In this document: piece by piece, positions 9,088-27,452 of the stretch
Numbering within the stretch: the first letter of the stretch is position 1
Layout: every line of letters starts with the position of its first letter
Source of the DNA: an uncultured Pelagibacteraceae bacterium
GTDB taxonomy: Bacteria > Pseudomonadota > Alphaproteobacteria > Pelagibacterales > Pelagibacteraceae
Length of the DNA stretch: 42,235 nt
Direction of reading: 5' to 3'
NCBI GenBank assembly: GCA_902520685.1
Contig: CABYPE010000007.1
Coordinates: forward strand, 1-42,235
Translations under genes and position numbers: made by a program
Notes under the pieces: model-generated
The model's database searches: none
Told to the model about the DNA's origin: nothing
What the model saw: the letters and a program-made list of their open reading frames with translations, nothing else

Positions 9088-10200
9088 TTAGAGTATTGAT
9101 AAGGGCTCTATAAACTCATGACCAAATACATCAGCAACAGCTTTATAAGTCACATGACCTTTATGAACATTTAGTCCTGCTAAAAAATTCTTATCATCAA
9201 GTAAAGCTTTTTGATAACCTTTATTTGCTAGTTTAACTAAATAAGGAAGAGTTGCTTGATTTAATGCAAAGGTAGAAGTTCTAGGAACACCACCTGGCAT
9301 GTTGGCTACACAATAATGAACTACATCATCAACAATATAAGTTGGATTTCCATGAGTTGTTGGTTTACTTGTTTCAACACATCCTCCCTGATCAATTGCA
9401 ACATCAACAATAACTGAGCCTCTTTTCATTAATTTTAACATATCTTTAGTGATTAATTTTGGTGCTTCTGCACCAGGAATTAAAACTCCACCTACCACTA
9501 AATCTGCATCAGCAATTAATTTGTTTAGATCTATTTTATCGCTTTGTTCTGGAATAATTTTATCACCAAACATTTCTACAAGCTGTTTTAATCTTGCATC
9601 AGATTTATCTATGATATGAACCTTTGCTTGCATTCCTGTCGCAATTATTGCAGCGTTTTCTCCTACAACACCGCCTCCAAGAATTAATACATTAGCTGGT
9701 TCACCTCCAGGCGCTCCTCCTAACAGTACTCCTCTGCCTTTTTGATTTTTTTCTAAGCAATGTGCTCCTGCTTGTACTGACATTCTTCCTGCAACAGCAC
9801 TCATTGGCGCAAGTAATGGTAATCTTCCATTATCATCAGTAACTGTTTCATAGGCAATGTTGATGCTTTTTGATTTTATTAACCCTTCAGTTAATTCTTT
9901 TGCTGCTGCTAAATGTAAATAAGTATATACAATTTGGTTTTCTTTTATCATATCTACTTCAACTTTTTGTGGCTCTTTTACTTTAACAATGATTTCAGCA
10001 TCGTTAAAAATATCAGCTGCAGTGTTCACAATTTTAGCTCCAGCATTTAGATATTGATCATTTTCAAAACCCGCTTCAAATCCACCATTGTTTTCAACTA
10101 AAACTTTATGACCTTCTGAAACTAAAGTTTTTACACTTTCAGGTGTTAATCCAATTCTGTTCTCTTGAGGTTTTATCTCTTTTGGTACTCCGATAATCAT
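9088..10200 (-). CDS. ald: Alanine dehydrogenase
   Basis: MIIGVPKEIKPQENRIGLTPESV, ILGGGVVGENAA, VDVAIDQGGCVETSKPTTH, YCVANMPGGVPRTST. Confidence 0.96.
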   Translation of the reverse strand: MIIGVPKEIKPQENRIGLTPESVKTLVSEGHKVLVENNGGFEAGFENDQYLNAGAKIVNTAADIFNDAEIIVKVKEPQKVEVDMIKENQIVYTYLHLAAAKELTEGLIKSKSINIAYETVTDDNGRLPLLAPMSAVAGRMSVQAGAHCLEKNQKGRGVLLGGAPGGEPANVLILGGGVVGENAAIIATGMQAKVHIIDKSDARLKQLVEMFGDKIIPEQSDKIDLNKLIADADLVVGGVLIPGAEAPKLITKDMLKLMKRGSVIVDVAIDQGGCVETSKPTTHGNPTYIVDDVVHYCVANMPGGVPRTSTFALNQATLPYLVKLANKGYQKALLDDKNFLAGLNVHKGHVTYKAVADVFGHEFIEPLSIL

Positions 10201-10241: not shown

Positions 10242-11588
10242 TTAGTTTTTTTGATTTTTTTGGTAATTAGTAATACCTGTTCTTAATTTATCAATAATTT
10301 CATCAATATGTTTTTCTTCACATATAAATTGTGGAGCAATGATTAAACAATCACCAGTTGCTTTAAAATTAACACCAGCTTCATAACATGATTTGAAACA
10401 TTCATAACCAGCTTTACCTGGTTTTGTATTCAACTTCATATCAATTCCTCCCATCATTCCATATCCTCTTATATTATCTACAGCTTCTAAATCTTGAAGA
10501 GAGAATAAACCTTTTTGAAAATATGGTGCTAAATTTTTTGCTCTATTAAAAATATCATCTTTTTCAAAAATATCTTGAACTGCTAATGCTGCTGCAACAG
10601 CGACTGGAATTCCTGAGTAAGTATAGCCATGAAACAATTCAACAGCTCCTGTTGGTGAAGCATCCATTACTGCATCATAAATACTATCATTACATGCTAC
10701 AACGCCCATTGGAACAACTCCATTAGTTGTGGCTTTTGCCATTGTCATAATGTCGGGTGTTACACCAAACTCATGTGCACCAAACTTAGATCCCGTTCTA
10801 CCCCATCCTGTAATTACTTCATCAAAAATTAAAAGTATTCCATGCTTGTCACAGATTTCTCTTAGTTTTTGTAAATACCCTTTTGGTGGAACTAATGTTC
10901 CTGTTGATCCTGCTATTGGTTCAACAATACAAGCGGCAATATTTTCACCACCAAAGTTTTGACAAATAGTTTCTAAATCATTTGCTAAATAATCTCCTGT
11001 TTCAGGCTGGCCACTTACAAATTTGTGTTCTGGCAAATGAGTGTGTCTAATATGTTGAACACCTGGCATTAAAATACTTGCAAATGTTTTTACATTATTA
11101 ACCATTCCACCAACTGAAACACAGCCTATGTTCATTCCATGATAGCCACGTTCCCTTCCTACAAACCTAAATCTTTGCGCATCTCCTTTTGCTCTATGAT
11201 ATGCAACGGCGATTTTAATAGCCGTCTCAACTGCAGTGGATCCGCAAATTGTAAAAAACATTTTATTTAAATCACCTGGTGTATGTTTTGCTATTTTTGA
11301 GGCAAGTTCGAAAGATCCTCCAAAACCTTGTTGAAAAGGTTGAGCATAATCTAAAGTATCTAATTGTTTCGTTACAGCTTCTGTAATCTCTTTTCTTCCA
11401 TGACCTAAAGGGTTACAAAATAATCCAGAGCTTGCATCAATTTGAGTTTTTCCATGATGGGTTTTTAAATAAACTCCCTTAGCTTCAGTAATTAATCTTG
11501 GATTTGCTTTAAAATCTTTATTTGATGTAAAAGGCATCCAATGTTCATTTAAAGAATTCGGGACTGAAATTCTATTTTCTGAGCTCAT
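10242..11588 (-). CDS. Class III aminotransferase, omega-amino acid (taurine or beta-alanine):pyruvate type
   Basis: LNEHWMPFTSNKDFKANPRLI, GRERGYHGMN, ILLIFDEVITGWGRTGSKFGA, MAKATTNGVVPMG (PLP lysine); adjacent to ald. Confidence 0.88.
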   Translation of the reverse strand: MSSENRISVPNSLNEHWMPFTSNKDFKANPRLITEAKGVYLKTHHGKTQIDASSGLFCNPLGHGRKEITEAVTKQLDTLDYAQPFQQGFGGSFELASKIAKHTPGDLNKMFFTICGSTAVETAIKIAVAYHRAKGDAQRFRFVGRERGYHGMNIGCVSVGGMVNNVKTFASILMPGVQHIRHTHLPEHKFVSGQPETGDYLANDLETICQNFGGENIAACIVEPIAGSTGTLVPPKGYLQKLREICDKHGILLIFDEVITGWGRTGSKFGAHEFGVTPDIMTMAKATTNGVVPMGVVACNDSIYDAVMDASPTGAVELFHGYTYSGIPVAVAAALAVQDIFEKDDIFNRAKNLAPYFQKGLFSLQDLEAVDNIRGYGMMGGIDMKLNTKPGKAGYECFKSCYEAGVNFKATGDCLIIAPQFICEEKHIDEIIDKLRTGITNYQKNQKN

Positions 11589-11766: not shown

Positions 11767-12708
11767 ATGAAAAAAATATTAAGCTTTATTCTTGGAAGTA
11801 TATTTGCACTTAACTTAAGTATTTCAGTAGCAAATTCTGCTGCCAATGAAGTTAGAGTTGCATACTTTCTAGAATGGCCAAGTCCAAATCTAGAAGAAAT
11901 GATAAAAAAAGGTTATTCAAAAGCTATGGGAGTTCCAGTTAAATGGACAACTTTTTCTAATGGTGGAGCGATGACTGATGCAATGTTAGCTGGTGATATT
12001 GATATTTCTTACTCACAAGGATTAGTACCTTTTATCAATGCCGTAAAATCTAAAGCACCAATTAAATTAGTTGATGTTGCTATGGAATACGGAATGGGAG
12101 GAACAACTTGTGTTACTTCTAATGCTTCTGGAATTACAAAAGCGAATGGTTCTGAATTAGAAGGCAAAAAGGTAGCTGTTCCCCTTGGAACAATGGCTGA
12201 ATACGTTTTTGATGAAAGTATGAAAGTAATTGGAGCTGACAGAGATAAAATGGATATCATTCAAATGGATCCACCAGAAGGTGCGGCTGCTTTGGTAAGT
12301 GGTGATGTTGTTATGGCATGTTTGTTTGGTGGTAATTCAATTAAAGCAGCAACAGCAGTTGGAACTCGATTATTAACAGTTCAAGAAGCTAGAGATGCGG
12401 GAATACTTGGTATAGATATTACTTCAGTAACTACAAAGTTTATGAAGGAAAACCCAGGAATGCTTAGAACTTTCGTAGAAGTTACTCATGAAGCAAATGC
12501 AAGATATCATGCGGGTAAACATGATGTGAATGCATTATCTAAAGCTTCTGAGATGAAAGTTGCCGACTTGAAAGAAACTTTATCTGGAATGAAATTCTTA
12601 ACTCCAGAAGAGACTAAAGTATCTATGGAAAGTGGAAACTTACATAAATTTTTAGAAGGTATGGGCACTCCAAAAGGAAATGTCGATACAAGTTTCTTAC
12701 CTCTATAG
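11767..12708 (+). CDS. tauA: Taurine-type ABC transporter substrate-binding protein
   Basis: Signal peptide, then VRVAYFLEWPSPN...KWTTFSNGGAMTDAMLAGDIDISYSQGLVPF; followed by ATPase and permease genes. Confidence 0.88.
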   Translation: MKKILSFILGSIFALNLSISVANSAANEVRVAYFLEWPSPNLEEMIKKGYSKAMGVPVKWTTFSNGGAMTDAMLAGDIDISYSQGLVPFINAVKSKAPIKLVDVAMEYGMGGTTCVTSNASGITKANGSELEGKKVAVPLGTMAEYVFDESMKVIGADRDKMDIIQMDPPEGAAALVSGDVVMACLFGGNSIKAATAVGTRLLTVQEARDAGILGIDITSVTTKFMKENPGMLRTFVEVTHEANARYHAGKHDVNALSKASEMKVADLKETLSGMKFLTPEETKVSMESGNLHKFLEGMGTPKGNVDTSFLPL

Positions 12709-12793: not shown

Positions 12794-13591
12794 ATGAGTG
12801 ATCTTGTTTCACAAAATCTAAATATGATTTTTAAGACTCCTAAAGGGGAAACAGTTCATGCATTAAAAGATTTAAATTTCACTCTTAAAAAAGGAGAGCT
12901 ATTAACAGTTCTCGGACCATCAGGTTGTGGTAAAACAACTTTATTAAACATTACAGCAGGATTTATTAGACCAACTTCTGGCAGTATCACTCTAAATAAT
13001 AATGAAATTGACGGTCCAGGTGTTGAAAGAGGAATGGTTTTTCAACAAGGAGCTTTATTTGAATGGTTGACAGTGGCCGAAAATGTCAATTTTGGATTAA
13101 GAATGAAAAAAAAAGATCCAACAGAAACTCAAAGAAAAGTTGATGAATGGTTAGAAATTGTTGGACTAAAAGGTTTTGGAAATACTCCAACTTATCAATT
13201 GTCAGGAGGAATGCAGCAAAGAGTTGCTCTTGCAAGATGTCTTATAAATGATCCTGATTTAATTCTGATGGATGAGCCATTGGGAGCTCTTGATGCGTTA
13301 ACAAGAGAAAAAATGCAGTCTTTAGTTTTAAAAATTTGGAAAGAAACTGGAAAAACAATTATTCTAATTACTCACTCTGTTGAAGAAGCATTACTACTTG
13401 GTGAAAGATTATATGTTATGGCCCCTCGACCAGGTCGAATTCATAAAGAATATAATCTACCATTTGCTTCAATGGGGCTTAAAGAGGATTTGAGAGAAAT
13501 CAAAAAAAATAAAGATTTTTCTGTTAAACGAGATGAAATATTAGAAATGATATGGAATATGGAAGAAGAAATTATGGGGAAAGAAATTTAG
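12794..13591 (+). CDS. tauB: Taurine-type ABC transporter ATP-binding protein
   Basis: GPSGCGKTT Walker A, LSGGMQQRVALARCLINDPDLILMDEPLGALD. Confidence 0.93.
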   Translation: MSDLVSQNLNMIFKTPKGETVHALKDLNFTLKKGELLTVLGPSGCGKTTLLNITAGFIRPTSGSITLNNNEIDGPGVERGMVFQQGALFEWLTVAENVNFGLRMKKKDPTETQRKVDEWLEIVGLKGFGNTPTYQLSGGMQQRVALARCLINDPDLILMDEPLGALDALTREKMQSLVLKIWKETGKTIILITHSVEEALLLGERLYVMAPRPGRIHKEYNLPFASMGLKEDLREIKKNKDFSVKRDEILEMIWNMEEEIMGKEI

Positions 13592-15517
13592 ATGCTTACA
13601 CAAATAGTAACTTTTATAATATTCTTTGCTGTTATAGGCTGTATTCTTTATGGAAGACGATTAATAAGAACTGAAAAAGTTGATGCTGTTTTTGGAAACC
13701 CTGAAAGAGCATTAGGTGGAACTCACTGGATTATTGTTGGAAGTAGTTTTCTTATTTTTATTTGGCTTTATTATTCGTGGGATATTGCAAAAGGGTTTTA
13801 TCCAAAATCTGCAAACGAACTCTGTCAAGTAGCTAAGGTTAACGACTCATTACTAGGATTAAAATACCAATTTCCTATTGAGGAAAGAGAATTAAAAAGC
13901 ACTAATCAAATTAAGCAGGAAAACAAAAACCTTCAAATAATTCTTTTGGAGGTACAAAATTCTCAAGAACTTAATGATGAACAAAAAACAATTCTGATTA
14001 ATTTCATAAGTGAGACAAACCAATTAATTCCATTATTAACTAACGAAGATTTGCTTGAAACTGAAACTAAACAAAGAATAGATAATATAACTGGTAAAAT
14101 TAACCTTTTAACTGAAAATTTTCAAAAACCAGACTACCCATTAGAAACTGAACAAGAATTGAATGAAAGACTACAAGCTGTAAAAGAGGAAGGTGGTTGG
14201 GGTATAACAAAAATAAATGCTGGTTCAGGTTCAATAGAGAATACATTAGAAGTACCTCTAATCCCAGCAACAAATAGAGGTCTAAAATTTCATGCTGCAG
14301 CTCAAGAATTAAATTTAATAAGTGAAGAGTTTTTTAAATTACGAAACCATAATTCACAATTTAAAAATAAAATAAAAGAAATTAAAGATAATATTAAAAC
14401 TTATAGAAAAAGCCTGGATGATAGTGAAGAAATAGCCTCAACATATGCTAAAAATGTTGTCAAAATTGCAAGAAGAATAGAATTTGCAAGTATATACCCA
14501 CCAAACACTTTAGACAAAATGCAAAACGCTATTATTAAATTTGATAATGCACAACTACAAGCTCAAGGTGGGTTAAGATTCATTGATATCTTTTTATTCC
14601 CTGCCGGAACAATTGTTGCTAGTGGAGCAAATTGCTCAGAACAAGGTTCTGGAAGATGGCTTCCAAAACCATCTGATACATTTAACAAATTTATCTTGAT
14701 GTCAAAACCAAGTGTTGGGTATAAAGATGTTCCTCTTCTATGGATAAAAATGTTTGATATAAGCAACGTTGTTGGTTTTATCTTGCCTGATTTTATTGCA
14801 GATATTTTACCAGGCGAATATCCAATTCATAATAAAGATGGAATAGTTAAACAAAACTTTAAAGGTAGAGTTCTTAAAATTGTAACTGGTGATTTTAATT
14901 TATTAAAGGTGCCGGTTCCTTATGGACATATCTGGGACTCATTTATGAGAGTTTTCTTAGGATTAGTATTTGGAATACTTATAGGTGTTCCATTAGGATT
15001 GTTTATGGGGTTAAATAGATTTGCAAAAGGTTTTTTTGATCCCTTAATAGAACTCTATAGACCAGTACCTCCTTTAGCTTGGGCACCATTAATTATTTCT
15101 GTATTGGGAATTGATAATACAGGAAAAGTTTTTCTTTTATTTATGGTTTCATTATCAATTATGATTATCTCTGCTAGAGCTGGAGCATCTGGTACTCAAC
15201 TATCAAAAATCCATGCGGCTCATTCACTTGGTGCATCAAAGAAACAAATTTTAAGATATGTAATATTTCCCAACTCTCTTCCTGAAATATTAACAGGTAT
15301 CAGAGTTGCTGTGGGAATGTGCTGGGGTACTTTAGTTGCTGCTGAGTTTTTAGCTGGAACAACTGGTATTGGTTTTGTTGAAAATGTTGCAAAAAAATAT
15401 TTCCAATATGAAGTAATTTGGATCACTATTTTTATTATGGGAATGCTTGGATTATTATTTGATATAACTTTAAGAAAACTAATAGATAAATATATTCCTT
15501 GGCGAGGGAAAGGCTAA
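13592..15517 (+). CDS. tauC: Taurine-type ABC transporter permease with about 350-aa N-terminal extension
   Basis: 641 aa; C-terminal ~260 aa is a TauC-like permease (IGVPLGLFMGLNRFAKGFFDPLIELYRPVPPLAWAPL...EAA-like loop GASKKQILRYVIFP); N-terminus has 2 TM segments and a long hydrophilic region. Confidence 0.9.
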   Translation: MLTQIVTFIIFFAVIGCILYGRRLIRTEKVDAVFGNPERALGGTHWIIVGSSFLIFIWLYYSWDIAKGFYPKSANELCQVAKVNDSLLGLKYQFPIEERELKSTNQIKQENKNLQIILLEVQNSQELNDEQKTILINFISETNQLIPLLTNEDLLETETKQRIDNITGKINLLTENFQKPDYPLETEQELNERLQAVKEEGGWGITKINAGSGSIENTLEVPLIPATNRGLKFHAAAQELNLISEEFFKLRNHNSQFKNKIKEIKDNIKTYRKSLDDSEEIASTYAKNVVKIARRIEFASIYPPNTLDKMQNAIIKFDNAQLQAQGGLRFIDIFLFPAGTIVASGANCSEQGSGRWLPKPSDTFNKFILMSKPSVGYKDVPLLWIKMFDISNVVGFILPDFIADILPGEYPIHNKDGIVKQNFKGRVLKIVTGDFNLLKVPVPYGHIWDSFMRVFLGLVFGILIGVPLGLFMGLNRFAKGFFDPLIELYRPVPPLAWAPLIISVLGIDNTGKVFLLFMVSLSIMIISARAGASGTQLSKIHAAHSLGASKKQILRYVIFPNSLPEILTGIRVAVGMCWGTLVAAEFLAGTTGIGFVENVAKKYFQYEVIWITIFIMGMLGLLFDITLRKLIDKYIPWRGKG

Positions 15518-16536
15518 ATTAATTTTAGAAATTTCCTTATATTTTTTATTTCATTTTCTTTAGAGAACTTTTTTTTAAGTCTATTATACTGATTTTTAGA
15601 ATAATTTTTTTTAAAGTTAATTCTACTAATTCTGTTAATGATGGTTTTAACAAAATTATTTATCTCACCTGAATTTATTTTTGTAAATAATGGTTTTTTC
15701 CAATATTCGTTCCCTCCTTCACCTGTGTATCCAATTACTTGATTTCCAGCTAACACGGCTTCCACAGGAGGCAATCCTAACCCTTCTAAGTATGAGAAAG
15801 ATAAGAAAATTTTAGATTTTTTAATTGATGAAATAAATTCTTTGTTAGATAAATTATGTAAATTTTTTAGGGTCCATTTTTTAGGTAGATGAGGTTTTAA
15901 ATATGAAATTACCAAATTGCTATGTTGAGGTAATTTTCTACTCGAATAAGTAATAATATTTCTTTTTGCATTAAAATTGATTTTACCAAAATCTACGTGA
16001 TATGAAATTTTTAAAATTTTAGATTTCATTTTTGGAAATTTAAGCTTTATACAATTACTAGTATCGCCAGAACTTGAAAGAATAAACTTTGCATTTTCAT
16101 AGGCTCTTAAAAGTTTTTTTTCATCATTAGTTGAATCAATTACATATCCATTTTGAACAAAGATAGCATAATTAATATTATTTCTTATTAAAAGTTCATC
16201 AGCAATATGTGCAAAAATTTCAGGTAAAATTATAAAGTCTCTTTTTTTATCGAAATTAAAATTTTGTTTGATATTTACCTTGTTATCAAACCATTTATAT
16301 TTAAAATTTTTAGAGTAAGTTATATCTTTAAATTGCCAGCCAGAGTAAATATTTCTTTTAATATTTAACTTTTTATTTATTGAGTCTCTAAATTTTGAAG
16401 ACTTTTTTTTCTTGATATGAACAACTTCTGAAGAAAAATTTTTTATTTTATTTATTATCTGAGAATAATTATAAATATATTTAGCACCACCAGATGGTTT
16501 TTTTTCTGCATGTGTAAAAAAAATAATATTTTTCAT
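15514..16536 (-). CDS. Glycosyltransferase (GT4-like)
   Basis: KIFLSFSYLEGLGLPPVEAVLAGNQVIGYTGEGG resembles a GT-B C-terminal donor-site motif. Confidence 0.75.
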   Translation of the reverse strand: MKNIIFFTHAEKKPSGGAKYIYNYSQIINKIKNFSSEVVHIKKKKSSKFRDSINKKLNIKRNIYSGWQFKDITYSKNFKYKWFDNKVNIKQNFNFDKKRDFIILPEIFAHIADELLIRNNINYAIFVQNGYVIDSTNDEKKLLRAYENAKFILSSSGDTSNCIKLKFPKMKSKILKISYHVDFGKINFNAKRNIITYSSRKLPQHSNLVISYLKPHLPKKWTLKNLHNLSNKEFISSIKKSKIFLSFSYLEGLGLPPVEAVLAGNQVIGYTGEGGNEYWKKPLFTKINSGEINNFVKTIINRISRINFKKNYSKNQYNRLKKKFSKENEIKNIRKFLKLI

Positions 16537-16537
16537 C

Positions 16538-17416
16538 TTAAGAAGCTATCCAATCTTTATAATCCATAATATTATTTTTGATATATTTTGGTAATTTTGC
16601 TGTATCAATTTTTTCAAGCTTAGTTTCATCAAATCGATTAACTGAATTCTTTTTAGCTTTATAGTTATATGGAACTATCTTTCTTTTAATATTATCATTA
16701 ATTTTTTCGAGAGAATTATTTTGAAGTTCATACTCAGCATGATTTTCGTCATTAAGATATTTATTTTCTAACCCTTCAGATGTTTTTAAATTAGAAAAAT
16801 GCCAGCCCCCATCATTAACAATTTTTACTGAATTTTGTTTATATTGAGAAAATAAAGTATCTATTCTTAAATATGAATATTGTCTATTTTTTATGTTTCT
16901 TAAAATATCAATATTTTTAAGATATTTTAATTTGCAAGCTTTTGAACCAAACCAATTTAAATCAGACAAACCTAAATTTAATTTATAATAAAAAATTTTT
17001 TGATTGAAAATTACAAATTTTTTTGAATTTAGTCTAAAATCAAATTTTTCTAGATTAGGAATTTCATCATTATCACTATGAATTATATAATCTTCAGATG
17101 AAAATTCGTTTAGACTATTTTTAATATAATTTCTTTGGGCTCGTATTCGAAGTATGCTATTAAATCTTTTTTCATGAGCACTTAAACTATCTTTTTTTAT
17201 TAAATTTTCTGGATCTTTCTCCAATACTAAATGAATTATTTTATCTTTGAATTTAGGGTAATCATTCAAATTAAAATTTATTTTTTTTCTTTTTCCGCTA
17301 TGAGTAAATAAACTTTCACAAACTATAAATTTGTCTACATAAGGATTTAATATGTTAAACCTTATATCCATCATCATATTTTCTTCAAAAAAAGTTGTTG
17401 TATCTATAACTTTCAT
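16538..17416 (-). CDS. Glycosyltransferase family 17-like (beta-1,4-GlcNAc-transferase-like)
   Basis: MKVIDTTTFFEENMMMDIRFNILNPYVDKFIVCESLFTHSGKRK; YIIHSDNDEIPNLE; likely start 17416. Confidence 0.78.
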   Translation of the reverse strand: MKVIDTTTFFEENMMMDIRFNILNPYVDKFIVCESLFTHSGKRKKINFNLNDYPKFKDKIIHLVLEKDPENLIKKDSLSAHEKRFNSILRIRAQRNYIKNSLNEFSSEDYIIHSDNDEIPNLEKFDFRLNSKKFVIFNQKIFYYKLNLGLSDLNWFGSKACKLKYLKNIDILRNIKNRQYSYLRIDTLFSQYKQNSVKIVNDGGWHFSNLKTSEGLENKYLNDENHAEYELQNNSLEKINDNIKRKIVPYNYKAKKNSVNRFDETKLEKIDTAKLPKYIKNNIMDYKDWIAS

Positions 17417-17496
17417 AAAGATTGAGTATAACAATAAATTGATAAGTATGACATATTGAATCAAAAAAACTTATAAACCTTAAAGAAAAAATATTT

Positions 17497-18378
17497 CTAT
17501 TTCTTGTTGATAATATTGTTTATATAATCTTTAAGTTTTGTTCTACCAAAGTATCTATATACTTTATTAGACAAATTCATGTTCGTTAAGGCAGAAGAAT
17601 ATCTCTCGCCAGGACGTTTTTTTTGATATTTTATTTTTGATTTAAACATTTTTGCAACTTCTAGAATTGAAAAGCTTTTTTTATTAGAAATTGAATAATG
17701 TCTAGAAAGATTTTTTTTCCAAGCTAAATAGCAAATTTCAATTGTATCGTTAATATGAGTAAATCTTCTAGTTTGTGTACCTGGTAATACAACAGGTAAT
17801 GGATTTTTTTTTTTAAATGATTCCTCAAATATACCTATCACGGTAGCCATATTTCCTTTAGATATTTGACCAGGTCCATAAACATTATAAAAATAAATCA
17901 CTTCATATTTAAAATTAAACCATTTTTTTAAGTTTTCTAGATATTCCAAGTTTTTTGCTTTTGTAAATGCATAAGGAGATAAATTTTTATCATGACCTTT
18001 ATTTCCTAGGGATGCTGATGTTGCAGAATATACTAACTTTATTTTATTTTCTAAACAGAATTTAAAAATAGAATTAGTTCCTATTGTATTAGACTCAATA
18101 CATTCATTCATTTTTAAAAAACTTTGATAGATTCTAGCAAATTCCCCAAAATGAAATACAGAATGAATATTTTTTGGTTTTTTAATTAATTTCTTAATAT
18201 TTTTTGTTTCACCAGTTAAATATTTAATCCTTGAGTTCTTTAGGTGTTTTTTTTTAGAACCAGATGAATAATTATCTATACTTATAATGTTATATTTTGA
18301 TTTTAATAATAAAAATCTTAATAAATTAGATCCAACAAATCCTGCACCACCTGTTACTATAATTGTATTTTTACTCAT
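17497..18378 (-). CDS. NAD-dependent nucleotide-sugar epimerase/dehydratase
   Basis: TIIVTGGAGFVGSNLLRFLL, FHFGEFARI, YNVYGPGQ, RRFTHINDTIE. Confidence 0.87.
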   Translation of the reverse strand: MSKNTIIVTGGAGFVGSNLLRFLLLKSKYNIISIDNYSSGSKKKHLKNSRIKYLTGETKNIKKLIKKPKNIHSVFHFGEFARIYQSFLKMNECIESNTIGTNSIFKFCLENKIKLVYSATSASLGNKGHDKNLSPYAFTKAKNLEYLENLKKWFNFKYEVIYFYNVYGPGQISKGNMATVIGIFEESFKKKNPLPVVLPGTQTRRFTHINDTIEICYLAWKKNLSRHYSISNKKSFSILEVAKMFKSKIKYQKKRPGERYSSALTNMNLSNKVYRYFGRTKLKDYINNIINKK

Positions 18379-18451: not shown

Positions 18452-19456
18452 ATGAAAATCAAAAAACTTAAACCTTTATTAGTAAAAATTTTTAAAAAAA
18501 ATGGACTTAGTACTGACCATGCTTTAATTTCAGCTAACGCCTTAATAAATGCAGAATTAGTTGGTGCCTATGGTCATGGTTTATCAAGACTTAAAATGTA
18601 TTGTGATCGATTAAATAAAAAAGTAATCAATCCTAAGCCTAAAATTAAGATAAAAAAAATTTCTCAATCAATTTCACACATAGATGCTAATGATTGTATT
18701 GGATTTGTTGCTGGAGATATTGCTATCAAGACAGCCATCAAAAATGCAAAAAAAACTGGTATTGGGATGGTTGCTGTTAAAAACAGCGGTCACTATGGTC
18801 TTTCAGGATATTATGCTGAACAAGCTGTAAAAAAAAATTTGATAGCTATGGTCTATACAAATGCACCACCAGCAGTTGCTCCCTATGGTGCTTTAAAAAG
18901 TTTATTTGGTACAAACCCCATATGTTTTGGATGTCCAACAGGATCAAAAATTCCATTTATTTTAGATACTTCAATTTCTATGATTAATAGAGGAAAAATA
19001 AGAGTTGCTGCACGTAATAATCAAAAAATTCCTAAGGGTGTAGCATTAGATAAGTTTGGTAAACCAACAACAGATGCAAAAAAAGCCTTAGCAGGTGTTC
19101 AATTACCAATATCAGGATTTAGAGGATCTGGTCTTGCTTGGATGGTTGATATTTTAAGTGGTGTGTTAACTGGTGGTAATCATTCTGGTAAAGTAAAAGA
19201 TCCTTTTGATGATTTTTCAGGACCACAAAATATTGGTCATTTGTTTATCACATTTAAAACAAATTTATTTGTAAAAAATTTTAATAGTAGAGTTAAAAAT
19301 AACATAAAAACAATTAAAAGATTGCCAAAAATAAAAGGAATAAAAGAAATAATGTATCCTGGTCAAAATAAGTATAAAAGACTCAAAATGAACACAAAAA
19401 AAGAAATAGATATTTCTGGTGTTGTTAAAAAAGATTTAGAAATTCTCAAAAATTAA
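18452..19456 (+). CDS. Ldh-family (malate/L-sulfolactate-type) dehydrogenase
   Basis: GAYGHGLSRLKMYCDRLNK, VKNSGHYGLSGYYAEQAVKKNLIAMVYTNAPPAVAPYG, FGTNPICFG; next to Pta and HpsN-like genes. Confidence 0.85.
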   Translation: MKIKKLKPLLVKIFKKNGLSTDHALISANALINAELVGAYGHGLSRLKMYCDRLNKKVINPKPKIKIKKISQSISHIDANDCIGFVAGDIAIKTAIKNAKKTGIGMVAVKNSGHYGLSGYYAEQAVKKNLIAMVYTNAPPAVAPYGALKSLFGTNPICFGCPTGSKIPFILDTSISMINRGKIRVAARNNQKIPKGVALDKFGKPTTDAKKALAGVQLPISGFRGSGLAWMVDILSGVLTGGNHSGKVKDPFDDFSGPQNIGHLFITFKTNLFVKNFNSRVKNNIKTIKRLPKIKGIKEIMYPGQNKYKRLKMNTKKEIDISGVVKKDLEILKN

Positions 19457-19461
19457 TCCTT

Positions 19462-20373
19462 ATGCTTTCAAATAAAGAAATTATTTGTCCAGTAAATTTA
19501 TTAAATGTGGCCCATAAAAAAAAGGGCGTTAAAGCTGGGATAGTAAATGCTGGCAAACCTTTACCAATGTTATCTGTTCAAGATGCAGTAAATGAAAATT
19601 TGATTGAGCCAATTTTTATTGGTGATGAAAAAGAAATATTAAGATGTGCAGAGGATTTAAAATGGAATATTTCAAAATATGAAATTATTCATGAACCAGT
19701 TGAAAATAATACTGCAGCTATCGCAGCAAAATTAGCGAGTGAAAAAAAAGTTAAGATAATAGTTAAAGGTCATATTCACACTGATGTGCTTATGAAAGAA
19801 GTTTTAAAAAGAGAATATGATTTATTAGGAAAAACTCGATTAAGTCATATTTGGCATATGACGATTGACAAAGAAGATAAGCCCTTAATTATTACTGATG
19901 GAGCTTTAAATGTTTTACCAAACTTAAAAACAAAAATGCATATCTTAAAAAATGTTATTAATTTTTCAAATAGAATTGGTATTGAAAGACCCAAAGTAGC
20001 TGTTCTTTCAGCGACTGAAGAAGTTTTAGATAGTGTTCCAAGTTCAAAAGATGCTGAAGAATTGACGAAACTTGCTAAAAAAGAAAATTTAAGTGCTGAT
20101 GTATTTGGCCCTCTAGCTTTTGATAATAGTATTTCAAAAAAATCAGCTGCAATTAAAGGAATTAAAAATGATGTTGCTGGAATGGCAGATGTTTTATTAG
20201 TGCCGAGTGTTGAAACAGGAAACGGTTTAGTAAAAATGTTAATTTATTTTTCGGGAGCGTGCGCTGCAGGAGTTGTTGTTGGTGGGAAAGTTCCAGTTGT
20301 AATAACAAGTCGCTCAGATGAAGCTCAAGCAAGATTAGCATCTATTGCAGCTGCAGTTGTTGCTTTAGATTGA
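19462..20373 (+). CDS. pta: Phosphate acetyl/butyryltransferase family protein (short Pta type)
   Basis: IFIGDEKEI, VKGHIHTDVLMKEVL, GMADVLLVPSVETGNGLVKMLIYFSGACAAGVVVGGKVPVVITSRSD. Confidence 0.87.
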   Translation: MLSNKEIICPVNLLNVAHKKKGVKAGIVNAGKPLPMLSVQDAVNENLIEPIFIGDEKEILRCAEDLKWNISKYEIIHEPVENNTAAIAAKLASEKKVKIIVKGHIHTDVLMKEVLKREYDLLGKTRLSHIWHMTIDKEDKPLIITDGALNVLPNLKTKMHILKNVINFSNRIGIERPKVAVLSATEEVLDSVPSSKDAEELTKLAKKENLSADVFGPLAFDNSISKKSAAIKGIKNDVAGMADVLLVPSVETGNGLVKMLIYFSGACAAGVVVGGKVPVVITSRSDEAQARLASIAAAVVALD

Positions 20374-20467
20374 TTTTAAATAAAAATTAACTATTTTTTT
20401 AAATTCTTGATTGAATTAAAAGAACTTATACTTTAAATACTTCTCAATAAATCAGGGGAAACAATCA

Positions 20468-21754
20468 ATGGCAATAATATACTTAAAAAAATCACCAAAA
20501 ACTTCGTCGACAGATGACTCTAAAACTACAGAAATAGTAAAAAATCTTCTAAAAGAAATTGAAACTTCAAAAGAGGAAGCTTGTATTAGCTTAACAAAAA
20601 AATTTGATAAATATGATGGTGAGATAGTTGTTTCAAAAGAGAAAATTGAAAAAATTAAAAAAGAATTAGATCAAAAAACAAAAGATGATATTCAATTTTC
20701 TCATGAACGAGTAAGAAAATTTGCAGAAGCACAATTAAAAAATTACGGTCAAGATTTTGAAGTTGAATTATCTCCAGGATTATACGCTGGTCAAAAATTA
20801 ATACCCGTTAACACAGCCGGATGTTATATACCTGGTGGAAGATATGCTCACATTGCATCAGCAGTAATGAGTGTAACAACAGCCAAAGTGGCTGGAGTTA
20901 AAAACATCATTGCGTGTAGTCCCCCTAAAGAGGATGTGGGTGCTCATCCTGCGATTATTTATACTGCTGATTTATGTGGTGCAGATGTAATATTAAATTT
21001 AGGCGGAGTTCCAGGTATTGCCGCTATGACAAATGGTTTATTCAAAAATCCTCCAGCAGACATTTTAGTAGGGCCAGGAAATCAGTTTGTTGCTGAAGCA
21101 AAAAGAATTTTATTTGGAAAAGTTGGTATTGATCTATTTGCAGGCCCAACAGAAATAGCGGTCATCGCAGATGAAAAAGCTGATGCCGAAATGGTTGCTG
21201 TTGACTTAGTTGGTCAGGCTGAACATGGATATAACTCTCCTGCATGGTTGTACACTACAAGCAAAAAAATAGCTGAAGCAGTAATGAAAAGAGTTCCTGA
21301 ACTAATTAATGAATTACCTGAAATACCTAGGACTAGTGCTGAGGCTGCCTGGAGAGATTATGGTGAAGTTATCCTATGTGATACTGATGAAGAAATGGCG
21401 ACTATAAGCGATGAATATGCGCCTGAACATTTAGAGGTTCAAACACAAAACCTTGAATGGTTTCATAAAAGATTAAAAAATTATGGTTCTTTATTTATAG
21501 GAGAGGAGACTACTGTTGCATATGGAGATAAATGCTCTGGTACAAACCACATACTGCCCACAAAAGGTGCGGGAAAGTATACAGGTGGTTTGTTTGTAGG
21601 TAAATTTATTAAAACTTTAAGTTTTCAAAGAATGACAAAAGAGTCCACTAAATCAGTTGGTGCAGCTTGTGCAAGAATATCAAGATATGAAGGCATGGAA
21701 GCTCATGCAAGAACAGGCGATATTAGACTTAGAAAATATGGATTTTCAAATTAA
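20468..21754 (+). CDS. hpsN: HisD-superfamily dehydrogenase resembling sulfopropanediol 3-dehydrogenase (HpsN)
   Basis: PVNTAGCYIPGGRYAHIASAVMSVTTAKVAGV, AAWRDYGEVILCDTDEEM, EHLEVQ, TVAYGDKCSGTNHILPTKGAGKYTGGLFVGKFIKTLSFQRMT, GMEAHARTGDIRLRKY; no his genes nearby. Confidence 0.8.
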   Translation: MAIIYLKKSPKTSSTDDSKTTEIVKNLLKEIETSKEEACISLTKKFDKYDGEIVVSKEKIEKIKKELDQKTKDDIQFSHERVRKFAEAQLKNYGQDFEVELSPGLYAGQKLIPVNTAGCYIPGGRYAHIASAVMSVTTAKVAGVKNIIACSPPKEDVGAHPAIIYTADLCGADVILNLGGVPGIAAMTNGLFKNPPADILVGPGNQFVAEAKRILFGKVGIDLFAGPTEIAVIADEKADAEMVAVDLVGQAEHGYNSPAWLYTTSKKIAEAVMKRVPELINELPEIPRTSAEAAWRDYGEVILCDTDEEMATISDEYAPEHLEVQTQNLEWFHKRLKNYGSLFIGEETTVAYGDKCSGTNHILPTKGAGKYTGGLFVGKFIKTLSFQRMTKESTKSVGAACARISRYEGMEAHARTGDIRLRKYGFSN

Positions 21755-21757
21755 AAA

Positions 21758-22486
21758 TTAATTTAAAATTTCTTTTCCATCTTCTTTTTTAATTTTATTT
21801 TTTTTATTTAAAGTCTCTTTCTTTTTTCTAATATTAATAAGATCTGCAAAATTATGATTTACATCTCTGTGTCCTGCCTCATCATCCCTGATAACTCTTA
21901 CAACATCTTTTAATGTGGCGTGTAAAGGTAAATTCCAATAGTTTATTGCAATTTCTGGAGCTGGTTGATCAGGTATGGTTCCAGATTCAAGTTCATTTAA
22001 ATATTCTGTATAACTAATAACTGCTTCCTCTTCAAAATATCCAACTATCCTATGTGCAGTTCTTTGAGAAATTAAATAAATTAGAGCATAAGTAAAAATG
22101 AATATAAATTGAGCAATCATTATAATTAATCTTTCGAAAGCAGTTGGTTTTGCGATATGAATGAAAGTCATTAAATGCATTCTTTCATTTTCTGCCTCTT
22201 CTAATAATATTTTAATCCAACCCTTGTCATCTTCAATTTTTCTAAGAGATTTTAAATGTATTAACATACCAGCAACCATACCAGGTACTGCAGCGACTGT
22301 TTCGAGAACCACAGCTCTATGTCCATACCTTTTTTTAAAAAAAGTGTCAGCTAAAATTCTTAAAAATTTAGTGAAAGACAAGGCAACTTTGTCACTTAAA
22401 TTTTTTGGTTCGAAATGTTTTTTTAATTTACTCATAATTTTAAAATAGTTACTGATTGAAATTTTAACATGTGCCATAGTTGACAC
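21758..22486 (-). CDS. aox: Alternative oxidase (AOX), di-iron ubiquinol oxidase
   Basis: [54 protein letters not shown]: the four diagnostic AOX motifs. Confidence 0.93.
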
Positions 22487-25225: not shown

Positions 25226-25293
25226 CATATATTTAATTAACGTAAGAAAATTAAATGAAGATCGGAGGAGATCTTTATTTGAAAGGAGAAACT

Positions 25294-25686
25294 GTGCTAA
25301 TAAAAAAAACTTTAAAAATATTTGCTACTTACTGTACAGCAATTCTAATATCTACTTCATCTTTGGCTGGTATGAGTGACAACGATAAGTCCAAAGCTTG
25401 GGACTGTGTTGGTATTTATATGGCTAACTACTTTCTTCCATCTGGTGAAACATTTGAATACGCTATGAAAGAAAAATCCATATCAACTGTAAAAGTTTTA
25501 AAATCCTACGCTCTTGAAATAGGTATTCCAGAAAAGGAGTGGGATGAAGGAGTTAATAAAGCAGTAGATAAACATTATGGATCAAAATATGACAAAGCTA
25601 AAACTGATAAATGTCATTCTTACGTTGAAGCTTTAGTTCCTAATGGGGCTGAAAGAGTTAAAAAAGTAATCCAAACATTGTATTAA
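25294..25686 (+). CDS. Secreted small protein, unknown function, paralog of next gene
   Basis: GTG start after aaaggaga SD; signal peptide; ...DNDKSKAWDCVGIYMAN...; two conserved Cys. Confidence 0.75.
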   Translation: MLIKKTLKIFATYCTAILISTSSLAGMSDNDKSKAWDCVGIYMANYFLPSGETFEYAMKEKSISTVKVLKSYALEIGIPEKEWDEGVNKAVDKHYGSKYDKAKTDKCHSYVEALVPNGAERVKKVIQTLY

Positions 25687-25688
25687 TA

Positions 25689-26063
25689 ATGAAAAAAATA
25701 CTAACAGCCTTATTATTGATAATGACAAGTAGTATTACCTTTGCAGATATGAATGATAGTAACAAATCTAAAACAATAGAATGCACTGGAATTTATTATG
25801 CTAATAGTATGATCCCTCAAGGTGAACTTGAATTAGAAAAGATTGTTCACTCTTTTGCAGCTAAAAAGTTTTTAAATTCTTATTTGTTAAAGGAAGGTGT
25901 TAAGGAAGAAAAACTTAATGAAGAATTATTAAAAGTTGTCGATATTCGTTACGGTAAACCATATGAGGAAGAAACAACAAAAAAATGTGATGAATTTATC
26001 TTTAAATTAATTTCAGGATCTAAAGATGAAATCAAAAAAATAGCAGAGTCAGGAATATATTAA
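25689..26063 (+). CDS. Secreted small protein, unknown function, paralog of previous gene
   Basis: Signal peptide MKKILTALLLIMTSSITFA; DSNKSKTIECTGIYYAN...RYGKPYEEETTKKCDEF. Confidence 0.78.
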   Translation: MKKILTALLLIMTSSITFADMNDSNKSKTIECTGIYYANSMIPQGELELEKIVHSFAAKKFLNSYLLKEGVKEEKLNEELLKVVDIRYGKPYEEETTKKCDEFIFKLISGSKDEIKKIAESGIY

Positions 26064-26079
26064 TAAACAAGGAGAAAAA

Positions 26080-26364
26080 ATGGAAAAAGAAATGTTAGTA
26101 GTGGCTAAATTAAAAGAGGGTATGTTTGAAAAATTTATGGGTTTCATGCAATCGCCTGAAGGTTTAGCAGAAAGAGCTAAAGTTGCAGTAGTAGAAAAAA
26201 CTATTGGGACGGTAACCCCAGATAAAAGTACTGTAATGTTTAAGATATTTTGTACTGATGAACCTGCATTACATAAATTTATTGAAGGAACTGAAGTATC
26301 AAAACCTATCATGGATGCTGTTTTAGAAAGCTATTCGATCTATGATTTAACAAAAGTAAAGTAG
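26080..26364 (+). CDS. Small protein of unknown function, possible dimeric alpha/beta-barrel fold
   Basis: 94 aa ORF with AAGGAG SD; predicted beta-alpha-beta pattern. Confidence 0.75.
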   Translation: MEKEMLVVAKLKEGMFEKFMGFMQSPEGLAERAKVAVVEKTIGTVTPDKSTVMFKIFCTDEPALHKFIEGTEVSKPIMDAVLESYSIYDLTKVK

Positions 26365-26371
26365 GAGAAAT

Positions 26372-26662
26372 ATGAAAAATTATATAGTAACACACACTTT
26401 TAAATCAAAAGAAGCAAAAGCTAAAATGATAGAAGTTACTGGTTCAATGTCGATGGAAGATATGACTAAGGCAATGACAAGTGACAATGCAAAGTGTCAA
26501 ATGAGCTGGAATACGCCAGGTGATAACTTAACAATGTTTTGCTGGTGGAAAGGTACAGATCCAGATGCAATTAATAAACAATTAGAGTCTATGAATGATT
26601 TCTATGAACCTCACAAATTTGTTGAGTGTACAGATGATATTATAGATTTTAATGCTAAATAA
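26372..26662 (+). CDS. Small protein of unknown function, possible dimeric alpha/beta-barrel fold
   Basis: 96 aa ORF with AGGAG SD; TMFCWWKGTDPDAINKQLESM similar layout to preceding gene. Confidence 0.77.
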   Translation: MKNYIVTHTFKSKEAKAKMIEVTGSMSMEDMTKAMTSDNAKCQMSWNTPGDNLTMFCWWKGTDPDAINKQLESMNDFYEPHKFVECTDDIIDFNAK

Positions 26663-26696
26663 AAATACCTAAACTTTGACTCAATAAGGAGAAACA

Positions 26697-27008
26697 ATGA
26701 AAGTAATTTATACTAGAACAATGAGAGTGAAAGATGACGGTTTAGGAAAAGCAATGGAAATTGGAAAAGGATTAGCGGCGGTTAGAAAAAAACATTATCC
26801 TAACCATGATGTCTATTTTTCTTTTCAAATGGGTGGAGATCCAAGAACAATAAGAGAAACTTTAATTGGATCTATGTTTGAAGGTGATAATGACGCTGAC
26901 GCTAACATGTCTGCAGATCCTGAATATATAAAACTTCAAGAGCAATTAAAAGATGTTGCTATAGAAGGAACAATTGAAGATGAGATCAGACCGATCTTTA
27001 GTGAATAA
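26697..27008 (+). CDS. Small protein of unknown function
   Basis: 103 aa ORF with AAGGAG SD in the same series. Confidence 0.75.
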   Translation: MKVIYTRTMRVKDDGLGKAMEIGKGLAAVRKKHYPNHDVYFSFQMGGDPRTIRETLIGSMFEGDNDADANMSADPEYIKLQEQLKDVAIEGTIEDEIRPIFSE

Positions 27009-27035
27009 ATTTAACAAAGAATTAAGGAAATAGTA

Positions 27036-27452
27036 ATGATAGATAAATTTGGTGGAATATTTTACTTAGCAATTTTTATAATTCATTTTATAGGTTATGC
27101 TTTTTATGGATTTAGATGTGTTGTCCAAACTCAAACTTTTTTGGATAAATATGGGATCGATGCTACAGGCGCAGGTGTAGTTAGATTTTTTGGATGTTTT
27201 TTTATCGGTTCAACCTTAATGGCAATCTATGTCGGCTTTATAAGACCTAACGGCTTAGAAGCTGCTTGGGCATTCTTTAATTTAGTATTTTTACAAAACC
27301 TATGTGCTTTTATTGTTGGTTTTTATAGTACTAAAATAAATAAACTTGGACATACAGATAAAACTTCGGATGAAGCAATTTATGGCCCATTAGCGCATAC
27401 TATTTTAAGTGCTGTACTTTGTTACGGTTTAGATGATAAAATTTATATTTAA
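27036..27452 (+). CDS. Small integral membrane protein of unknown function
   Basis: 138 aa ORF with about 4 hydrophobic segments; AAGGAA SD. Confidence 0.75.
   Translation: MIDKFGGIFYLAIFIIHFIGYAFYGFRCVVQTQTFLDKYGIDATGAGVVRFFGCFFIGSTLMAIYVGFIRPNGLEAAWAFFNLVFLQNLCAFIVGFYSTKINKLGHTDKTSDEAIYGPLAHTILSAVLCYGLDDKIYI

Follow-up and report, generated by a model that had tools for sequence, protein, structure and literature searches.

A predicted all-helical domain inserted in the first periplasmic loop of a TauC-like permease from SAR11 bacteria

The window analysed here, a stretch of 42,235 nucleotides from an uncultured Pelagibacteraceae bacterium, encodes a TauC-like permease of 641 aa that is more than twice as long as an ordinary TauC. 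Profile comparisons with shorter relatives place 286 of the added residues in periplasmic loop 1, as an insert between the transmembrane (TM) helices TM1 and TM2 that is accompanied by one extra N-terminal TM. The insert is confidently predicted to be a self-contained, compact and all-helical domain. By analogy with the MalF-P2 loop and the DppB scoop motif, it could work as a permanent docking and sealing platform for the binding protein TauA, a reading to which we give an even chance.

The reading frame at 13592-15517 (plus strand) is uninterrupted across its 641 codons. The Pfam family BPD_transp_1 covers solely residues 465-628 (E 2.3e-25), and among curated models the best match is that for taurine permease TauC, over residues 444-640 with 181.5 bits against a cutoff of 342 (NF007545); the protein is thus TauC-like, below the equivalog level. 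The Foldseek matches of the full-length model are the permeases NrtB (nitrate) and CmpB (bicarbonate), with E-values from 6e-8 to 1e-5. The BPD_transp_1 core, an EAA-type loop and an operon shared with a TauA-like substrate-binding protein (SBP) and a TauB-like ATPase place it among the TauC/SsuC-type permeases of type I ABC importers. The relevant genes of the window are the following.

9088 to 10200, minus strand: alanine dehydrogenase (TIGR00518, above cutoff)
10242 to 11588, minus strand: omega-aminotransferase, probably a taurine-pyruvate aminotransferase (NF052567, above cutoff)
11767 to 12708, plus strand: TauA-like substrate-binding protein with a signal peptide (SsuA_fam and taurine_ABC_bnd matches, both below cutoff)
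12794 to 13591, plus strand: TauB-like ATPase, directly abutting tauC (taurine ATPase model, E 8.7e-80, below cutoff)
13592 to 15517, plus strand: TauC permease of the alpha (helical) form, 641 aa (open reading frame with the BPD_transp_1 and TauC matches given above)
19462 to 20373, plus strand: phosphate acetyltransferase-like (Pta-like) protein (PTA_PTB, E 1.3e-32)

The tauA-tauB-tauC order is unchanged in every locus examined, and the omega-aminotransferase also adjoins the locus in a SAR11 genome of 1,308,759 bp. Elsewhere in the same genome as the window there is a match to Xsc, strong over its first 350 positions. The frame has only 358 aa, apparently because it runs off the end of a contig, and this shortness keeps the match under the cutoff for the whole protein. 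Judged by this gene content (aminotransferase, alanine dehydrogenase, Pta-like gene and Xsc match), the neighbourhood is of the taurine/sulfonate type. Taurine is the presumed substrate of the importer from this context, with TauA scoring below the taurine-binding cutoff. In R. pomeroyi, tauABC mutants, including SPO0676, are impaired on taurine (PMC10130141).

Further downstream, 3' of tauC and of the glycosyltransferases, positions 18452-21754 of the window encode a sulfolactate-dehydrogenase-like Ldh_2, the Pta-like phosphotransacetylase and a histidinol-dehydrogenase-like protein that is possibly HpsN-like. This suggests that the segment belongs to a broader island for the catabolism of C2 and C3 sulfonates, and TauABC may import other substrates besides taurine. 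Here, the interval between tauC and the Ldh_2 gene (15514-18378) is occupied by two glycosyltransferase genes and one for an NAD-dependent epimerase-like protein (minus strand), whereas Ldh_2 lies immediately 3' of tauC in the 1,308,759-bp genome; the genes at 15514-18378 are a strain-specific insertion of the surface-polysaccharide type. An alternative oxidase (AOX) gene is found at 21758-22486 on the minus strand, and six small ORFs in a row (94-143 aa, plus strand), with no Pfam match, occupy 25255-27452.

Within the permease, the following parts can be distinguished, all of them on the plus strand.

13595 to 13672, plus strand: extra N-terminal TM helix (TM0), residues 2-27 (hydropathy; AlphaFold helix 2-27; absent from uninserted relatives)
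13673 to 13720, plus strand: predicted cytoplasmic TM0-TM1 loop, positively charged, with invariant VFG and PxR motifs (invariant columns V33, F34, G35, P37 and R39)
13721 to 13789, plus strand: putative canonical permease TM1, residues 44-66 (hhalign of the FG..TM1 region against uninserted TauCs, E 9.5e-5, probability 59%)
13790 to 14647, plus strand: predicted inserted periplasmic all-helical domain, residues 67-352 (AlphaFold model, selection and lack of family or fold matches, as detailed below)
13823 to 13825, plus strand: Cys78 at the start of the insert, invariant in 50 long forms and 68 inserts
14633 to 14635, plus strand: Cys348 in the closing beta-hairpin of the model, invariant in the same 50 long forms and 68 inserts
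14657 to 14677, plus strand: WLPKPSD motif, residues 356-362, where the insertion ends (hhalign against the Ig-form flank, E 1.4e-6, probability 90%)
14705 to 14911, plus strand: second, smaller and hydrophobic loop-1 expansion, residues 372-440, well conserved and absent from short forms
14927 to 15493, plus strand: permease core TM2-TM6 (Pfam; Foldseek to CmpB and NrtB)
15212 to 15271, plus strand: EAA-type coupling loop HAAHSLGASKKQILRYVIFP, residues 541-560, the TauB contact site (sequence and conserved columns)

The location of the insert was deduced from its flanks. Uninserted relatives of ~288 aa (L088-L092), to which the SAR11 TauC core is 51-53% identical, read TVKFGDATAV...-TM-...PFYWPSIDGTWDRL. 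The counterpart of their FGD-TM1 part is found at residues 29-72 (KVDAVFGNPERALGG-TM-..GFYP), and that of their post-TM1 motif at residues 354-370 (GRWLPKPSDTFNKFILM), WLPKPSD being the canonical post-TM1 motif of TauC-like permeases. In profile comparisons, the flanks of a second inserted TauC, the Ig form described below, matched the short forms with E-values of 4e-14 and 2e-13 (98%). Direct comparisons were weak for the alpha TM1 flank against the Ig flank (11%) and for the alpha post-insert flank against the short forms (3%). Therefore, the site in the alpha form rests on the two stronger comparisons listed above, linked through the match between Ig and short forms. From these counterparts, the second hydrophobic segment would be the ordinary TM1, residues 67-352 the insert and residues 372-440 the smaller expansion, for which AlphaFold gives low-confidence short helices and strands and no confident TM. 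The "N-terminal extension" of an earlier note on this DNA consequently becomes a loop-1 insertion plus an extra TM. The hydrophobic segments that it placed near residues 1-25 and 47-66 do correspond to hydropathy peaks (1-19 and 41-65), but the second belongs to the core; instead of being limited to the C-terminal ~260 residues, this core consists of TM1 and about 200 C-terminal residues.

The EAA loop meets TauB, so that this loop and the C-terminus are cytoplasmic. Counting TMs backward from there, residues 67-440 would therefore lie outside and the loop at residues 20-44, which holds five K/R, inside. A periplasmic insert follows from this topology, assuming that the weak hydropathy peaks at 328-348 and 380-406 are not single membrane crossings, and the full-length model shows no crossing at either position. 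The periplasmic placement proposed earlier thus agrees with both the TM parity and the positive-inside rule.

The long TauC is widely shared. A full-length or near-full-length relative was present in 80 of 80 loci fetched from other SAR11 genomes, nearly all of 641 aa and 86-96% identical. The survey across the Pelagibacterales and beyond that had been proposed in the earlier note recovered the extra region in 195 of 297 genomes of the order, closed (single-contig) ones included, as well as in SAR116-type and a few other Alphaproteobacteria. Among SAR11-family genomes without the insert, 20 of the 21 checked had no orthologous TauC (permeases 21-29% identical, or nothing), and the remaining one carried a 180-residue TauC piece, 98% identical, apparently a contig-edge fragment. 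Therefore, the extra domain was present wherever this TauC was found in SAR11, and no natural deletion of the insert was seen across the 80 loci, the 297 genomes of the order and the 21 insert-less genomes of the family. The oversized permease can thus be taken as real. The unusual length could in itself point to a gene fusion or an assembly artefact joining two genes, yet we give this practically no credence: the same length recurs in dozens of genomes obtained independently, whether from single cells, from isolates or as closed sequences, homologous long forms exist in other groups, and the canonical TM1 sits 5' of the extra domain, which indicates an insertion.

Modelled alone with 68 sequences, the insert yielded a pLDDT of 89.5 and a pTM of 0.83, with eleven helices and a closing beta-hairpin. 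The full-length AlphaFold model gives a consistent picture of the insert (pLDDT per block mostly 82-91 over residues 81-200 and 221-330) and is weak in the core. "Coiled-coil-rich", as the region had been called, is better put as a compact helical domain, while the idea of a separate extra domain gains from the agreement of predicted fold, conservation and selection. The search of this region for a known domain, suggested beforehand, retrieved no Pfam or NCBIfam family above cutoff for residues 67-352, and no known domain was found in PHROGs or in PDB sequence and profile searches either; the weak profile matches were to scattered coiled-coil families and were disregarded. Foldseek retrieved no PDB structure below E 0.04 and no viral model (BFVD) below E 0.05. 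Judged against the PDB and viral models, the predicted insert has no recognised fold.

The insert is under purifying selection and is less constrained than the core, with dN/dS values of 0.062 and 0.011, respectively, in 719 close SAR11 pairs. Even between inserts that share as little as about 24% identity, twelve columns do not vary, C78 and C348 included. TauC has only two other cysteines, at positions 17 and 577; a C78-C348 disulfide is therefore a natural prediction, and it would staple the base of the domain.

In a tree of the 201-column core, one clade (100/100) unites all helical forms: those of SAR11, those of SAR116-type Alphaproteobacteria (present in about 41 of the order's 121 genomes), those of a small order comprising three families (7 of its 11 genomes) and those of four Rhodobacteraceae-family genomes. 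One SAR116-order genome has a TauC 56% identical to the SAR11 form and grouping with SAR11 in this tree, reflecting either horizontal transfer or binning contamination. A TauC of ~445 aa with a different insert occurs in 70 of 150 Rhodobacteraceae genomes, the family being assigned through relatives named as Ruegeria and Paracoccus. The single member scanned has an insert that matches Pfam Big_9 (bacterial Ig domain) above cutoff; the Ig form was read by upstream length and sequence, the rows of the Rhodobacteraceae clade with at least 242 upstream residues all being of the Ig form. In the core tree, it is a separate clade (98/99) nested among uninserted forms. The Ig insert occupies the same loop-1 site as the helical one, between TM1 and the WLPxP motif, and it also comes with an extra N-terminal TM: by hydropathy, one TM precedes the core in uninserted forms and two in inserted forms, although the second falls below a simple hydropathy threshold in a few helical forms. 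The simplest reading of these alignments and trees would be two independent insertions at one site of TauC loop 1. The insert profile was not found in proteins other than TauC in 278 genomes of the class and 396 of the phylum, nor in plasmid records. No insert was found beyond the Alphaproteobacteria in the 396 phylum genomes, which are largely of the same class and test this weakly.

Among the roles offered in the earlier note, a docking domain for TauA is the most likely. TauC, presumably as a homodimer, would provide the permease of a type I ABC importer of the TauABC (taurine/sulfonate) kind, and there is one permease gene per operon; two copies of TauC, and of the insert, would therefore be expected per transporter. 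The two inserts could together ring the channel opening on its outer side like a collar. This collar would dock taurine-loaded TauA and hold it through the cycle, and it would seal the vestibule such that freed taurine is neither lost nor re-bound. Loop 1 would lie at the mouth where TauA binds, and it is from this position that we infer the docking and sealing function; the disulfide and the collar itself are likewise inferred. Ig-like domains, as found at the same site in the Rhodobacteraceae, commonly mediate protein contact. Type I importers commonly engage their binding protein through a periplasmic loop of the permease (PMC12136057). For the scoop motif in the TM1-TM2 loop of DppB, a sealing of the outward-facing cavity has been suggested; when the motif is deleted, uptake is impaired and ATPase activity drops to about a quarter (PMC12136057). 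MalF-P2 (residues 91-271) contacts MalE directly (PMC3150292). Against this reading, TauA/SsuA systems function even where the permease has no insert (L088-L092).

Co-evolution of the insert with TauA by a mirror-tree approach was also considered. By distance correlation, TauA was the strongest partner of the insert in 68 SAR11 loci (partial r 0.44, bootstrap 0.35-0.54), but this was not reproduced in 37 other helical-form loci from SAR116 and relatives (TauB 0.63, core 0.35, TauA 0.32). TauB ranked first there and yet cannot touch a periplasmic domain; therefore, the correlation mainly follows rate and descent, and it was dropped as evidence.

Rather unlikely, in our view, is a structural or assembly module that would stabilise the TauC dimer or anchor the importer to peptidoglycan or an outer-membrane protein, with no direct role in substrate transfer. 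The all-helical character of the insert without similarity to ligand domains, the wide divergence between lineages (about 24-32% identity) and the extra TM accompanying both insert types would fit such a module. However, the insert matches no known peptidoglycan-binding or outer-membrane-binding family, and the loop nearest the SBP face, used in two lineages, is better suited to an SBP-related role. It appears quite improbable that the helical domain is a second receptor or sensor, with taurine or some other molecule as its ligand, and serves to gate the importer or to capture substrate when this is very scarce. Periplasmic sensor domains made of helical bundles do exist, TorS and McpS (HBM-type) are among the Foldseek matches, and the invariant charged residues of the insert include K102, E220 and R295; yet these matches are non-significant (E about 1, TM-score below 0.2 by query length), and a separate soluble TauA is encoded upstream in every locus examined. 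We are a little more doubtful still of regulation by some other route, such as trans-inhibition, the sensing of membrane lipids or the recruitment of a partner, or of a neutral passenger impossible to lose. The faster evolution of the insert relative to the core would suit these readings, while its dN/dS value, its retention in strongly streamlined SAR11 genomes and the lack of natural deletions in SAR11 all speak against a passenger.

The claim of a "novel ABC importer architecture" was overstated, as periplasmic loop domains or motifs are already known in MalF (P2) and DppB (scoop). E. coli-type TauC/SsuC and the uninserted alphaproteobacterial TauCs (about 288 aa) share the BPD_transp_1 core, the EAA loop, an LPxP-type motif after TM1 and the tauABC order with the SAR11 protein, but they have neither the insert nor the extra N-terminal TM. 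The Big_9 TauCs of Rhodobacteraceae (Ruegeria conchae plasmid NZ_CP081104.1, Paracoccus aminovorans NZ_LN832562.1) have the same site, extra TM and operon, with a different, smaller, beta-type domain in place of the helical one. MalF P2 of the maltose importer is, like the SAR11 insert, a large folded domain in a periplasmic permease loop (about 180 residues); nevertheless, it sits in the TM3-TM4 loop of one heterodimer subunit, has another fold and occurs as one copy per complex, whereas the SAR11 insert is all-helical and placed in loop 1. The DppB scoop shares the topological place of the insert, the TM1-TM2 periplasmic loop as indicated by flank homology, but consists of about 30 residues (two short helices and a loop) compared with a predicted autonomous domain of 286. 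NrtB and CmpB (PDB 8wm8, 9u9z), the best structural matches of the core, are permeases of 250-265 residues without an inserted domain. In GlnP and OpuA, an SBP-fold domain is fused to the permease; in contrast, no SBP fold was detected in the all-alpha SAR11 insert by Pfam or Foldseek, and TauA is separate. No published description of the inserted domain was found in the openly searchable literature, where there also appears to be no account of its size, of its fold, of its setting in an importer with one permease gene or of the repeated insertions into TauC loop 1.

SAR11 are the most abundant ocean bacteria, with genomes stripped of dispensable DNA. A 286-residue domain with a dN/dS of 0.06, kept in every SAR11 TauC found, should thus pay for itself. 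For marine prokaryotes, taurine is a substantial source of carbon and energy (PMC6647121). As a tentative and, taken whole, rather doubtful proposition, the new helical fold would form a paired collar acting as a capture or gating module for nanomolar taurine, and TauC loop 1 would be a repeated graft site at which SBP coupling was solved twice by unrelated domains in marine Alphaproteobacteria. Unlike MalF-P2, the insert should be present as a pair, on a symmetric importer to which a single asymmetric binding protein docks. In nature, the loop of otherwise similar TauCs occurs in three states (empty, Ig and helical), which constitute a ready comparison set, and the insert would offer a handle on the coupling between binding protein and ABC importer in oligotrophs living at very low substrate.
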